Under the pieces are notes generated by a model that saw only the letters and a list, made by a program, of their open reading frames with translations, did no database searches and was not told where the DNA came from. From positions 1,268,750 to 1,332,749 of the forward strand of contig NZ_LT670846.1 in assembly GCF_900142435.1 (NCBI RefSeq): a DNA stretch of 64,000 nt, given 5' to 3'. The translations under genes were made by a program, and so were the position numbers. This DNA is from Thermocrinis minervae (GTDB lineage: Bacteria > Aquificota > Aquificia > Aquificales > Aquificaceae). Shown here one piece after another: positions 3,111 through 54,097 of this stretch (its first letter is position 1; every line of letters begins with the position of its first letter).

Positions 3111-5291
3111 CTACAGTAGCTTTGTAAGGTCACGAATCTTCTCAGCATCAGTGAAGCTCGTGGAAGCATGAGCCTCTGGATGACCGTACAGACCGCAGAG
3201 GGTAACTATGGTAGTGGGTGTATGTTTTCTTAGCATCCTTATGACGAAGTCTGTCCTGTAGCAGTGGACTCCCACCAGAAGGGTTAGGTCGTTCTGTGTA
3301 TGCAATATAGTATGGTATGGATTGGGAGGATCCATCTCTACTGTTGGGTCGTACTTCTTGAGCTTGGGCCTGTAATCGGGGAGGATCTTTACCATGACCT
3401 TGTCTAACTTTTCCAATAGCTCTCTCACAGCTTGTGCCTTTTGCCTTAGTTCCTCCTCTCCAAAGTCCCACAGGAGCAATGGACCTACTACTAGGGTAGG
3501 CCTTTTAGACTCTTTTATAAGCTTTGCTATGTACTCAAGGGCTTCTTTGTAGCTTACGGCTCTATCTCCTATAGTGGCTTCACCTTTGAAGACTTCTTCC
3601 TGCATGGCTGTTCTAGTCCTATCCTCTTGTGGGGTAGGGACAGCCTTTGGTTTTTTGTAGTACGAGGGGATAAACTCCTTGAAGTATGGAGAAAAATCAA
3701 AGGATTGATTCTTCTTATGGTGTGAACCGTCTATAGACTCTTTTACCGATAGGCTCTTATAAAGGTCCTCCTTTATCAGATCCAGCTCTACTGTAAACTC
3801 TCCGTGATAGGCTTTTTCTTCTTCTTCAACTCCAAGACTGTAGCAAGTGGTACCCACTATGTCAAAAAGCACACCGTTAGCTCCTTCCTTGGAAGCCCTC
3901 TGGAATATCTCATACCTCTTTTCATAAAACTCATAGCAGCAGTGGCCTATGTACGTATAACCGTTTTTGGCACACCACAGGAGTGTATCCCTCAAGAGTT
4001 CAAAGGAAGTTATGGTTATGGGTATCATGCCCTTTTCATAAGCGAGCCTGTAGGCATCTCCTACAGTACATCCACCACACTCTCCACAGTCATCCAGATG
4101 TCTGTAGTCACACCACCTTGGCTTTGCACAGTAAGGTAATAGCATAACCTTGGCCTTTTTTATGTTCTCAATAAGCGGAGCACCTATGGAAGCTATTATG
4201 TTGTTAAGTCTTTTTTTTTCTATGCCAAGGTCAAGACCTTCCACCTTCCTTAAAGGAAAGATGACCGCCTCTACAAAGTCATCCACAGTAAGGTTAAGAC
4301 CTTCCCACTCTCTGTTCTCAAAGAACTCTCTTATCCTCTTTTCCACATCCCTGATGGGTGTATGCTTTAGGTACGCCTCCAGGTCGTATATGAGCCTTTG
4401 GGGTTTTACAAAAAGATCTCCGTTTATGATAACCTCCTGTAGGACCATCCTCTGAGTGTCCACCTTAGCAGAAACCCTAAAGGTTCCACCTGGACACCTG
4501 TATATACCATAGAGCATCTCCATACTTTCGGGAGCCTTCTTCACGTGGTATATCCATTCTTCGCTGGCAAAGTAATCTCTTTTCTCTTCAAGTAGATTTA
4601 GTTCTTCCTGTGTCAGCTCTCCCCACTGGTATTCTATGCCTAGCTCTTCAGACAGACCTTCCAGTATGGCATCAAAGACTTCCTTATCTTCAGGAAGTCT
4701 ACCTAAGTACCTCTTTACCCACTCTACCCTATCCTCAGCGCTCTTTATACCCTTTGAAGTGAGCTTTTCTACTGGAATCTGGAGGGACTTTAACATCCTT
4801 TCTACACTAAAGTCCATCAGTATGGTACCCTGGTAGAGGAAGGAATTACCTTCAAAGACTCCACCCGTTCCAGAAATCTTCCTACCTTCTACCTCTATAT
4901 CGTTCCTTGGTCTGAACTCCGCAGGAATGCCTAGCTTTCTTAAACCTCTGGCTACACCCTGACATATCTTCTTGGTTAGTTCTTCGTAACTACTAACTCC
5001 CAAATCCGCCGTAGACCCTATCACCTCCCATCCTATCTGTGACCTGTCAAAGTAGATGGCTCCTCCTCCTGTTATCCTCCTGCCTACCTGTATACCTTCC
5101 CTTTGGGTGTACTCGAGCCTCACTTCCTGCTCTATGGCTTGGTGAAAGCCTATGAGTACACACTCTGGATCAAACTTCAGAAACCTTATGGTATTTGGTA
5201 TCTTCCCCTCTGATCTTAGGTCCAACATTATCCTGTCTAGGGCTATGTTCTCGTAGTGTGGTCTGGGCCCTGTATAGACAACTCTCCACAT
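3111..5291 (-). CDS. lipoate-protein ligase A - DUF116 - CdhB-like triple fusion
   Basis: A 726-residue protein with three parts. Residues 1-335 are a complete LplA-type ligase: RRITGGGAIYFD (71-82), the catalytic lysine Lys138 in GRKISGTGG, and the small C-terminal accessory domain with PGGTFRV and INGDLF. Residues about 365-490 match DUF116, with Cys388, Cys394, Cys402, Cys405 and Cys408 in a cluster that looks metal- or Fe-S-binding, plus Cys440, Cys451, Cys452 and Cys483. After a charged linker, residues 578-726 resemble the small epsilon/CdhB subunit of archaeal CO dehydrogenase/acetyl-CoA synthase (KRPTLVVGPLLL, then a second half with VGVHCYRTDF). The ligase part should attach lipoate or octanoate to a carrier protein; the roles of the other two parts are not known to me. 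The ATG at 5291 has an AAGGAGG site; truA follows directly. Confidence 0.8.
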   Translation of the reverse strand: MWRVVYTGPRPHYENIALDRIMLDLRSEGKIPNTIRFLKFDPECVLIGFHQAIEQEVRLEYTQREGIQVGRRITGGGAIYFDRSQIGWEVIGSTADLGVSSYEELTKKICQGVARGLRKLGIPAEFRPRNDIEVEGRKISGTGGVFEGNSFLYQGTILMDFSVERMLKSLQIPVEKLTSKGIKSAEDRVEWVKRYLGRLPEDKEVFDAILEGLSEELGIEYQWGELTQEELNLLEEKRDYFASEEWIYHVKKAPESMEMLYGIYRCPGGTFRVSAKVDTQRMVLQEVIINGDLFVKPQRLIYDLEAYLKHTPIRDVEKRIREFFENREWEGLNLTVDDFVEAVIFPLRKVEGLDLGIEKKRLNNIIASIGAPLIENIKKAKVMLLPYCAKPRWCDYRHLDDCGECGGCTVGDAYRLAYEKGMIPITITSFELLRDTLLWCAKNGYTYIGHCCYEFYEKRYEIFQRASKEGANGVLFDIVGTTCYSLGVEEEEKAYHGEFTVELDLIKEDLYKSLSVKESIDGSHHKKNQSFDFSPYFKEFIPSYYKKPKAVPTPQEDRTRTAMQEEVFKGEATIGDRAVSYKEALEYIAKLIKESKRPTLVVGPLLLWDFGEEELRQKAQAVRELLEKLDKVMVKILPDYRPKLKKYDPTVEMDPPNPYHTILHTQNDLTLLVGVHCYRTDFVIRMLRKHTPTTIVTLCGLYGHPEAHASTSFTDAEKIRDLTKLL

Positions 5292-50930: not shown

Positions 50931-51902
50931 ATGAGTCAACTTTTGGCCGAAAAGTTTTATTTTCTTATGAAGCTTGGGAGGGAGTTTGAACTCAGGGCAA
51001 AGGAAAAGTACCTAAAAGGAAACATATCGGGCTTCCTACACCTAGACATAGGACAAGAGGCTGTGAGCGTCGGGGCTGTCATTGGTTTTGGTAAGGGAGA
51101 TCTTTTCTGTCCTTACAGAGAACACGTGCTTGCTTTGGCTAGAGGTATGGATCCTAAGCTGATAATGGCAGAACTATTCGGCAAGGTCACAGGTGTATCA
51201 AAGGGGAAAGGTGGATCCATGCATCTGTACGAGCCCAAGCTTGACTTCTACGGTGGGAACGCTATAGTGGGTGCTCATCTTCCACACGCTGTAGGTGCTG
51301 CATACGCAAGGAAGGTTAGGGGTGAAAAGGCTGGAGTCTTAGCTATCTTTGGAGATGGTGCTACAAACGGTGGGAGCTTCTTTGAGTCCATAAACCTAGC
51401 CACAGTCTGGGAAGTACCTGTCCTTTTCCTATGCGTGAACAACTTTTATGCCATAGGTACGAGGATAGAAAGGGTATCCGCTTTTAAAGACACCTACCTC
51501 AAGGTAAAAGACTACATGCCTGCTGTTCAAGTGGATGGTATGGACGTGTTTGCCGTTTACGAAGCAGTGGTAAAGGCTAAAGAGTACATACAGGAGCATT
51601 CAAAGCCTTACTACATAGAGGCCATAACCTACAGGTTTGAAGGTCACTCCATGGCTGACAAACCCGATTACAGACCACCGAGGGAAGTGGAGATGTTCAG
51701 AAGGAGGGATCCCATAGAGCTGCTTAGGCAGAAAGCTTTGCAGATGGGATGGCTCACAGAAGAGCAGATAAACATCATAGACAGGAGGGTAGAACAGATA
51801 GTAGAAGAGGCTGTAGAGTTTGCCTTGAACTCTCCAGACCCAGATGTAGAGGAGCTTTACAGGGACGTATACTGCGGGGTGTGTGCTGATGCTCTACCGT
51901 GA
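50931..51902 (+). CDS. pdhA: 2-oxoacid (pyruvate) dehydrogenase E1 component, alpha subunit
   Basis: 323 residues. Thiamine-diphosphate motif GDGATNGGSFFESINLA...VNN, CPYREH, and the phosphorylation-loop-like RFEGHSMADKPDYR. Decarboxylates a 2-oxoacid, most likely pyruvate; acetoin dehydrogenase is the main alternative. First gene of a three-gene operon with E1 beta and E2; E3 is not in the window. Confidence 0.9.
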   Translation: MSQLLAEKFYFLMKLGREFELRAKEKYLKGNISGFLHLDIGQEAVSVGAVIGFGKGDLFCPYREHVLALARGMDPKLIMAELFGKVTGVSKGKGGSMHLYEPKLDFYGGNAIVGAHLPHAVGAAYARKVRGEKAGVLAIFGDGATNGGSFFESINLATVWEVPVLFLCVNNFYAIGTRIERVSAFKDTYLKVKDYMPAVQVDGMDVFAVYEAVVKAKEYIQEHSKPYYIEAITYRFEGHSMADKPDYRPPREVEMFRRRDPIELLRQKALQMGWLTEEQINIIDRRVEQIVEEAVEFALNSPDPDVEELYRDVYCGVCADALP

Positions 51903-52863
51903 TGCTTTAAACCTTGCCCTTGACCACGCTATGGAAAAGGACCCTACGGTGGTCATCTTAGGGGAGGATGTGGGCTTTTATGGAGGAAACTACAAGGTAA
52001 CAGAAGGACTTTATGCCAAGTACGGGGACAAGAGAGTTATAGACACTCCCATAGCGGAGAATTCTATAGTGGGCACGGCCATAGGCATGGCTACGGTAGG
52101 TCTAAGGCCAGTGGCCGAGATAATGACAGCCAACTTCGCCATGCTAGCCATGGACCAGATAGTCAACAACATGGCGAAGATAAGGTACATGAGCGGTGGT
52201 AAGATAGCCTTACCTATAGTGGTACGCATGCCTCAGGGTGCGGCTAAACAGCTAGCAGCTCAACACTCTCAAAGCTTGGAGCACATGTTTGCATCCGTCC
52301 CAGGTCTTTATGTCTTTTGTGCCTCGGATTCCATAAGCGCCTACCATGGGCTTCTGTACGCCATAAGGCTTGACGATCCTGTCATATTCCTTGAGCATCC
52401 ACTCCTTTATCCTATGGACTTTCCCTTTGAGTACGTCAAAGACTTTGATCCTTTCAAGGTAAGAAGGATCAAAGAAGGCAAGGACGTGACCATAGTGTCT
52501 TATCTAAAGATGGTGCACGACGTTATGGCGGCGGTAGATGAGCTCGAAAAAGAAGGCATCTCCTGTGAAGTCCTAGATCTTGTATCCTTAAGACCTATAG
52601 ACTTTGAGGGTATATACGAATCGGTAAGGAAGACAAAAAGGCTTGTGGTAGTTTACGAAGCACCAAAGACTTTAGGGCTTGGAGCGGAGATATCTGCAAG
52701 AGTTAGTGAAGAGCTCTTCTACTACCTGGATGCTCCACCCTTGAGGGTAGCCGGTGAGGATGTTCCCATACCCTACAACAGGAAGCTAGAGCTTATGGCC
52801 ATTCCAACACCTGAGAGGATATACAGGGAAATACTACAGTGGAGTAGAAGACATGGACTATGA
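51889..52863 (+). CDS. pdhB: 2-oxoacid (pyruvate) dehydrogenase E1 component, beta subunit
   Basis: About 324 residues. The ATG at 51889 is chosen because GGGGTG lies 7 nt upstream; an in-frame GTG at 51883 is possible. GEDVGFYGGNYKVTEGL, DTPIAENSIVGTAIGMA and the transketolase C-terminal part (DLVSLRPIDFEGI, GEDVPIPYNRKLE) are typical. Forms the alpha2beta2 E1 enzyme with PdhA. Overlaps both neighbours. Confidence 0.92.
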   Translation: MLYRDALNLALDHAMEKDPTVVILGEDVGFYGGNYKVTEGLYAKYGDKRVIDTPIAENSIVGTAIGMATVGLRPVAEIMTANFAMLAMDQIVNNMAKIRYMSGGKIALPIVVRMPQGAAKQLAAQHSQSLEHMFASVPGLYVFCASDSISAYHGLLYAIRLDDPVIFLEHPLLYPMDFPFEYVKDFDPFKVRRIKEGKDVTIVSYLKMVHDVMAAVDELEKEGISCEVLDLVSLRPIDFEGIYESVRKTKRLVVVYEAPKTLGLGAEISARVSEELFYYLDAPPLRVAGEDVPIPYNRKLELMAIPTPERIYREILQWSRRHGL

Positions 52864-54097
52864 AATAGTTATGCCTCAGTTTTCGGATACCATGGAAAGG
52901 GGCAAGGTGGTAAGGTGGCTAAAAAAGGAGGGTGAGTTTGTACAGAAGGGGGATGTGATAGCTGAAATAGAAGCTGAAAAAGCCGTTATGGAGCTTCAGG
53001 CCTTCAAGAGCGGCATACTCAAGGCTATCCTTGTTGAGGAGGGTCAAGAGGTAGAGGTAGGAAAACCTATAGCACTGCTGGAGCTAAAAGGAGAGGCAAC
53101 TCAAGAGAAGGAACCTACGGTCAAGGAAGTTACCAAACAACCCAAAGAAGAAAAACCTGTCTTTGAAAAACCCAAGATAAACGTAGAGAGGTTGGAGCTT
53201 CCCAGTGGATTTGCATCACCATACGCCAAGGTTCTAGCGAAGGAATACAACATCAACCTGGAGGAGCTTCAAAAGGAAGGCAGGCTTCCTTCACCTGCGC
53301 ATGCCAAAGATGTGCAAGAGTTTTTAACAGAGAGGTACTTTACACCCAAGGCTTTAGAGCTCTTAAAAGAATACGAGCTGAACATAAAGGAAGTTCTGGA
53401 GGAATTTGGCGAGGTCAAGATAACCGAGGACATGCTTCTGGCCTTCATAGAGAAGAGGGGAATACCCAGAAAAGTTCCCGTATCTAGTGTTCAAAAGGCT
53501 CTCATAGCGAACCTTACAAAAAGTGTACTCAGCTTCCCCTATTTTCACATACACGAAGTGTTTGACTTTTCCTTCATACCCAAGATAGAAGGTATTACTC
53601 TCACTCACTGGATAGTGAAGATAGTAGGGGACTCCATGCAGGTATTTGAAAGGCTAAGGGCCATATACAGAGAAGATCACTACCTTATCCTTCCTTCATC
53701 TAACGTATCAGTGGCTGTGGCAGTGGGAGAAGATCTATACAACCCGGTAGTGAAGTCTGTAGAGAAGAAAAACTTAAGACAGATAGCAAACGAACTAAAT
53801 CAGCTGAGAAAGAGGGCAGAAGAGAAAAAACTCTCCTTAGAGGAAATACAGGGTGCTACTCTGACTGTCTCAAACCTTGGCATGCTTGGAATAAGATCTT
53901 TCGATGCTGTCCTGCCTTACGGACATGCATGCATAGTAGCCGTAGGAGCCATGGACCAAGAGGGTAAAGCACACCTCACCTTTACCTTCAACCACGTTGT
54001 GCTTAACGGTTTTACCGCTGCTCTTTTCGTCAAGCATCTAAAGGAAAGGTTTTCAGACAGAGACTATATTAACTTCCTCCTTAGAGAGGTTTCTTAG
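52853..54097 (+). CDS. pdhC: dihydrolipoamide acyltransferase (E2)
   Basis: 414 residues. N-terminal lipoyl domain with the lipoylated lysine in EAEKAVMEL (about residue 44); acidic linker; a subunit-binding domain around FASPYAKVLAKEYNINLEEL and a second, degenerate copy-like segment (TPKALELLKEYELNIKEVL); then the catalytic domain. The active-site motif HxxxDG reads HVVLNG, with Asn for Asp. Should carry acetyl groups to CoA, if still active. Converges with ygfZ, overlapping by 17 bp. Confidence 0.88.
   Translation: MDYEIVMPQFSDTMERGKVVRWLKKEGEFVQKGDVIAEIEAEKAVMELQAFKSGILKAILVEEGQEVEVGKPIALLELKGEATQEKEPTVKEVTKQPKEEKPVFEKPKINVERLELPSGFASPYAKVLAKEYNINLEELQKEGRLPSPAHAKDVQEFLTERYFTPKALELLKEYELNIKEVLEEFGEVKITEDMLLAFIEKRGIPRKVPVSSVQKALIANLTKSVLSFPYFHIHEVFDFSFIPKIEGITLTHWIVKIVGDSMQVFERLRAIYREDHYLILPSSNVSVAVAVGEDLYNPVVKSVEKKNLRQIANELNQLRKRAEEKKLSLEEIQGATLTVSNLGMLGIRSFDAVLPYGHACIVAVGAMDQEGKAHLTFTFNHVVLNGFTAALFVKHLKERFSDRDYINFLLREVS

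Follow-up and report, generated by a model that had tools for sequence, protein, structure and literature searches.

For sLpl(AB), the ligase of the LipS1/LipS2 lipoate-assembly pathway, the known gene arrangement is of the lbpA-lipS1-X-lipT-lipS2 type (PMC6067878, PMC10332631). LbpA carries the lipoyl group in sHdr sulfur oxidation. LipS2 inserts sulfur at C8 before LipS1 does so at C6, and both steps draw on auxiliary [4Fe-4S] clusters (PMC9585515). E. coli cells carrying lipS1-slpl(AB)-lipT-lipS2 form mainly the mercaptooctanoyl product with one sulfur, the last step being inefficient (PMC10332631). The main texts on the sLpl(AB) pathway make no mention of DUF116 (PMC6067878, PMC10332631), and a literature search of main texts returned no publication that joins DUF116 or PF01976 with lipoate. 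Two further systems bear on the gene described here: dnaX of T. thermophilus, from which two products are made by slippage on a run of nine adenines (A9; PMC1088944), and the delta subunits of A. aeolicus, which are CODH/ACS-epsilon-like and of unknown role in an organism for which no ACS genes are reported (PMC10052474). The Thermocrinis minervae gene that we analyzed encodes a lipoate ligase fused to DUF116 and to a PF02552 domain. On balance we favor the reading that it specifies the lipoate ligase of the LipS1/LipS2 pathway together with a probable Fe-S helper module, made as two products by dnaX-like slippage, where both the products and the chemistry of the helper are what we infer from the genes.

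A ligase-DUF116-PF02552 gene in Thermocrinis minervae

The LplA(B)-DUF116-PF02552 fusion gene is a single intact ORF of 726 aa at 3111..5291 on the minus strand of the window (the whole 64,000-nucleotide stretch of DNA that was analyzed), in a genome that consists of one complete contig of 1.368 Mb. Profile matches on the 726-aa product confirm that the three-part ORF described in the initial annotation is real, and Lys138 and Cys388, 394, 402, 405 and 408 are at the positions given there. A structure model of the whole protein has a pLDDT of 85 and a pTM of 0.71.

Residues 1–345 (4257..5291, minus strand) form an sLpl(AB)-like lipoate:protein ligase with a catalytic and an accessory domain, as indicated by Pfam, NCBIfam, PDB and fold matches and by a tree. 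Pfam places LplA-B_cat at residues 12–213 (E 6.5e-44), the LplB-like accessory part lies at residues 262–343 (39 bits with the LplB model, below the 65-bit cut-off), and the structure model matches the complete lipoate ligase LplA1 (8cri) with a TM of 0.84 over the target. In the tree, in which deeper forks are weak, the fusion's ligase clusters with operon-borne LplA-DUF116 proteins of Nitrospirota (support 91/78) and the second LplA of the T. minervae genome falls in a separate group (100/100). The codon for the catalytic Lys138, NDIEVEGRKISGTGG (4878..4880, minus strand), is kept in every sequence that covers the region except the Hydrogenobaculum fusions, where the GGGA and Lys ligase motifs are destroyed and the DUF116 and PF02552 parts are still conserved; Hydrogenobaculum has a separate intact standalone LplA gene, which adjoins a fabZ-like gene. 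We also note that a second, shorter LplA/LipM-like protein of T. minervae (281 aa; G000:C1:768930-769580, L003), outside the fusion's ligase group, is encoded directly behind a methionyl-tRNA synthetase-like gene, that a further lipoate acceptor in this organism of the rTCA type is the 2-oxoacid dehydrogenase complex whose E1 alpha, E1 beta and lipoyl-domain E2 are encoded at 50931-54097 (plus strand) of the window, and that in one Aquificaceae genome (L096:5593-6933) the ORF is broken at a long A-run within the LplA domain (QKKKKKLLEE), in addition to the junction tract described below.

The DUF116 module spans residues 365–520 (3732..4199, minus strand) and is recognized from Pfam, from conservation across many phyla and from a confident model of the isolated domain (pLDDT 91). 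With hmmscan, DUF116 (PF01976) matches residues 356–427 at 24.1 bits, just below the 25-bit cut-off; a six-frame search of the same gene gives 27 bits, over the cut-off, and the homologue L104 scores 45.9 bits. Eight cysteines are invariant in 59/59 DUF116-bearing sequences from bacteria and archaea: those of the cluster Cys388-x5-Cys394-x7-Cys402-x2-Cys405-x2-Cys408 (4068..4130), the pair Cys451-Cys452 (3936..3941) and Cys483 of a TCY motif (3843..3845), all on the minus strand. These invariant cysteines suggest that DUF116 is probably an Fe-S module. The domain has no convincing fold match in the PDB (best E 0.04), and a profile search was likewise without a convincing one.

A generic DUF116 encoded directly behind def-fmt in a Nitrospirota genome (L196:1408-1932) suggests another role for the parent family. 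It shares with the lipoate-linked form an LLPxC-x5-C-x(7-9)-C-x2-C-x2-C core and later Cys and CY motifs, whereas the lipoate-linked form is distinguished by an LLPYCAKP signature, by an extra Cys in the CC pair (of which the generic protein keeps one of two), by fusion to LplA and by linkage to LipS1/LipS2 rather than to fmt. Since generic members occur both in def-fmt contexts and in methanogens, the DUF116 superfamily appears to have other roles. At L134:8695-9177, not far from an LplA-DUF116 gene, another DUF116 of the lipoate-linked type stands on its own (160 aa).

Rather than assisting sulfur insertion as an Fe-S module, DUF116 might be an enzyme or carrier in its own right, its fusion to the ligase serving only for channeling; it might, for example, act on octanoate, on an sHdr-carrier persulfide or in a LipT-linked electron path. 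Consistent with this notion, the domain is predicted to be alpha/beta and Rossmann-like, the invariant CC pair and TCY motif exceed what a simple cluster site needs, and the family is linked to sulfur oxidizers; the failure to match any known enzyme in fold or sequence speaks against it, and we think it rather unlikely, if deserving of serious consideration.

The A9 tract at the ligase/DUF116 junction

The ligase and DUF116 parts of the T. minervae gene meet at an A9 tract (4211..4219, minus strand; codons E358-K359-K360-R361), which we assessed by a comparison of 46 loci and against the homopolymer background. An A-run is present exactly at this junction in 46/46 Aquificaceae loci outside Hydrogenobaculum, with nine A's in 44, eight in one and ten in one. 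The initial annotation had raised the possibility that the frame is split in other strains, and this turned out to be partly so: the fusion is open and in frame in 38 of the 46 tract-bearing loci but split in eight at one fixed point, the A8–A9 run, where DUF116 lies in the −1 frame and one extra A is needed (one fewer is never needed). At every locus a stop follows the tract by no more than a few codons in each of the other registers, which would yield only LplA; in T. minervae an added A gives GIEKKKT-stop and a lost A gives GIEKKDLTT-stop.

What is conserved is the length of the tract and not the peptide, since reading phases 0, 1 and 2 are all used and the peptide contexts include IEKKR, IDKKKL, LKKKE and IGKKN. 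The tract at 4211-4219 is the sole homopolymer of at least nine in the 64-kb window, and the rest of the coding DNA at these loci, ~560 kb, contains no other A9; two runs that looked like background proved to belong to this same fusion gene. Given the peptide and codon usage, the chance of an A9 is 0.02–0.09 per genome, and the product over seven genera is 8e-9, a figure that is only indicative because it treats as independent seven genera whose loci are related. The tract is absent from all five Hydrogenobaculum-group loci examined, where the separate ligase gene exists. There is also no A-tract at the LplA-DUF116 junction in Nitrospirota, Chloroflexota and archaea, which suggests that in these groups the fusion alone suffices.

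If the A9 were an incidental Lys-Lys linker, the split genes would be assembly errors or decayed copies and only one product would be made. Most loci do read through in frame, every split case comes from a MAG, and homopolymers are error-prone. However, the length stays at nine while phase and neighboring residues vary, the tract is also present in a complete genome (L253), and a run that has no counterpart in ~560 kb is gone precisely where the ligase has a gene of its own. Moreover, errors in a gene with A9 should show up as A8 or A10, yet seven of the eight split loci have exactly nine A's and all eight are shifted in the same direction; sequencing error as the origin of the split frames is for these reasons improbable, and we are inclined to reject the incidental-linker explanation as a whole. 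In the genomes with a split frame, conservation of the DUF116-side peptide extends, in most cases, further upstream than any usual start codon.

We consider it likely instead that the A9 serves dual decoding, in which RNA polymerase slippage or −1 ribosomal frameshifting would yield LplA alone (~362 aa) as well as the long fusion, that is, the pair of products that Pseudomonadota and Hydrogenobaculum encode as separate genes. Of the two mechanisms we prefer slippage because no conserved RNA structure was detected downstream of the tract in 18 genomes (z ~0 in most, near −2 in two).

Association with the LipS1/LipS2 pathway

A scan with the DUF116 part identified LplA-DUF116 proteins in Sulfuricella and other Pseudomonadota, Nitrospirota, Chloroflexota, Bacillota, Desulfarculus and archaea. 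Almost all of these are single ORFs of ~500–660 aa that lack the third part; among viral contigs no relative was found. The combination extends well beyond T. minervae, LplA-DUF116 being widespread, and it is the third part alone that is specific to the Aquificaceae. Operons of the form lbpA-lipS1-[lplA-DUF116]-lipT-lipS2, whole or in part, are present in Nitrospirota, Chloroflexota and Desulfarculus.

Co-occurrence points in the same direction. LipS2 was found in 32/39 LplA-DUF116 genomes, and in a sample of 300 Burkholderiales genomes it is present in 25/26 of those with DUF116 versus 18/274 of the others (Fisher 8e-24; 9e-19 without the seed genomes). The corresponding association with LipS proteins in Nitrospirota is 3/5 versus 0/193. 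In Aquificota, where DUF116 always occurs together with LplA, 54/55 DUF116-bearing genomes have LipS1 or LipS2, and the three reverse cases (LipS without DUF116) are incomplete MAGs. LipA is distributed differently: genus g10 and the Hydrogenothermaceae, which lack the fusion, also lack LipS1 and LipS2 and keep LipA; Hydrogenobaculum displays the reverse pattern, with LipS1/LipS2 and the fusion present and no LipA over the cut-off. The lipoate-linked DUF116 is not universally required, since 18 of the 43 LipS2-positive Burkholderiales genomes are without one.

The T. minervae genome itself holds LipS1, LipS2, LipT and LbpA. LipS1 passes the equivalog cut-off in this genome and in L104, and for the LipS2 candidates LipS2 is the best family, though below its cut-off. 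Lip genes are scattered in Aquificaceae genomes, the LipS1 gene of T. minervae being in an operon with two LbpA genes and one for an sHdr-type CCG protein, and synteny around the fusion is not conserved within the Aquificaceae, except that gcvH lies three genes away in two genomes. LipT is present in the family, and we therefore rejected the idea that the C-terminal domain replaces it. Besides these genes and the fusion, the 1.37-Mb genome carries two LipA-like genes (G000:C1:1192730-1193530, minus strand, and 296896-297699, plus strand).

In Pseudomonadota most of the loci examined are canonical LbpA-LipS1-sLpl(AB)-LipT-LipS2 operons with a ligase of 344-396 aa without DUF116, and many such genomes also hold LplA-DUF116 outside the lip operon. 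The pairing of a free ligase with a DUF116-linked ligase (or scaffold) thus recurs, both Pseudomonadota and Hydrogenobaculum having the two genes. In Sulfuricella a short His-rich gene (cupin/WbuC-like by eye) follows LplA-DUF116 (L099:6590-7075; L105:6483-6968) and overlaps its stop in L105, and one genome of the Hydrogenobaculum group has a second, cut-off LplA-DUF116-like copy (L051:1-1107, G031:C100), likewise without the A-tract.

The recurrence of this pairing bears on whether DUF116 is a redox or metal-sensing gate, its cluster sensing oxygen or the redox state and switching the ligase while taking no direct part in sulfur insertion; redox-gated lipoylation had been suggested in the initial annotation. 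The domain is Cys-rich and physically fused to the ligase, and its hosts are microaerophilic sulfur oxidizers. But gating in cis is not what has been conserved, as in Hydrogenobaculum, and to some extent in Pseudomonadota, the ligase domain that stays attached to DUF116 is dead or a duplicate and the working enzyme is encoded by another gene, and the co-occurrence is with LipS1/LipS2, not with LplA generally; we regard a gate as improbable. Delivery of sulfur for lipoyl synthesis, a role proposed in the initial annotation, is favored by the genomic context, in which this DUF116 subfamily co-occurs and co-localizes with LipS1, LipS2, LipT and LbpA, and is a plausible function that we infer from that context.

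The third part of the fusion, residues 568–718 (3138..3590, minus strand), is a PF02552 (CO_dh) domain by Pfam (E 5.7e-34). The triple fusion is found throughout the Aquificaceae and elsewhere in the searched sets on just one contig (L071), which is labeled as the Acidobacteria MAG J001, carries an Aquificaceae triple fusion at 80% identity and is probably misbinned. In an early-branching genome of the Aquificaceae (L040/L098), LplA and DUF116 are present but PF02552 is not, and the third part for this reason looks like a later addition. Two standalone PF02552 proteins of T. minervae match the C-terminus at 36% and 31% identity, and both of their genes adjoin 2-oxoacid:ferredoxin oxidoreductase alpha-like genes; since, in addition, the cdhB equivalog TIGR00315 scores only 18.5 bits against a cut-off of 101.2 and PDB entries for the archaeal epsilon subunit match weakly (E 0.05-0.14), we assign the domain to the For/Por-delta type. 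The CODH/ACS-type C1 function first read into the C-terminus draws on the PF02552 match itself but is scarcely credible, given the distance from the cdhB cut-off, the nearer For/Por-delta relatives and the reported lack of ACS genes in A. aeolicus (PMC10052474).

Proposed function and comparison with known systems

In the model that we favor, the sLpl(AB)-like part would activate octanoate or lipoate with ATP and attach it to LbpA, perhaps also to GcvH or E2, an activity that is well supported at the level of the family. More tentatively, DUF116 may bind an Fe-S cluster and re-supply cluster, sulfur or electrons to the radical-SAM enzymes LipS2 and LipS1 on the freshly octanoylated carrier; LipS1 and LipS2 use up an auxiliary [4Fe-4S] cluster with each sulfur insertion. 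More speculatively still, the For/Por-delta paralogue confined to the Aquificaceae could dock the enzyme to a partner, perhaps to reductant-producing oxidoreductases. That DUF116 is the missing Fe-S/sulfur-donor factor of LipS1/LipS2, its stoichiometry to free ligase being set in the Aquificaceae by A9 slippage, is a stronger version suggested by the sequences, and one we would for now doubt. It addresses a published weakness of the heterologous system, in which the second sulfur is inserted inefficiently, and if true it would account for the stalling of the reconstituted bacterial pathway after one sulfur. The E. coli result fits the donor model and does not prove it, as E. coli, being a foreign host, might be short of further factors and 18 LipS2-positive Burkholderiales genomes manage without this DUF116.

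With this assignment DUF116, a family of unknown function, would gain a pathway, and the LipS1/LipS2 lipoate route, which sHdr sulfur oxidizers need, would gain a candidate component. Dual decoding conserved in this way, at the A9 junction, would be a rarity in central cofactor metabolism.

Comparison with the For-delta and Por-delta subunits of five-subunit 2-oxoacid:ferredoxin oxidoreductases (PMC10052474) reveals shared PF02552, 30-36% identity and common DYRPK, GVHC and C..GH motifs; those subunits, however, are encoded beside the alpha subunit, whereas the present domain is fused to LplA-DUF116. The ligase resembles sLpl(AB) of the LipS1/LipS2 pathway (PMC6067878, PMC10332631) in its catalytic and accessory domains, its catalytic Lys, its position in lipS1-slpl-lipT-lipS2 operons of several phyla, its LbpA partners and its co-occurrence with LipS1/LipS2. 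It differs from the canonical Pseudomonadota enzyme of ~344-396 aa in carrying DUF116 and, in the Aquificaceae, the third domain, and its Aquificaceae gene is not beside lipS1 or lipS2, although its homologues in other phyla are. With T. thermophilus dnaX (PMC1088944) it shares an A9 within a gene of a thermophile at which either alternative register leads to an early stop and a short product; the gene itself is a different one, and at eight loci the arrangement is reversed, the short product being the predicted default and the long one presumably dependent on slippage. What is new, then, is an uncharacterized module and a candidate for dual decoding on the known sLpl(AB)/LipS1-LipS2 system.
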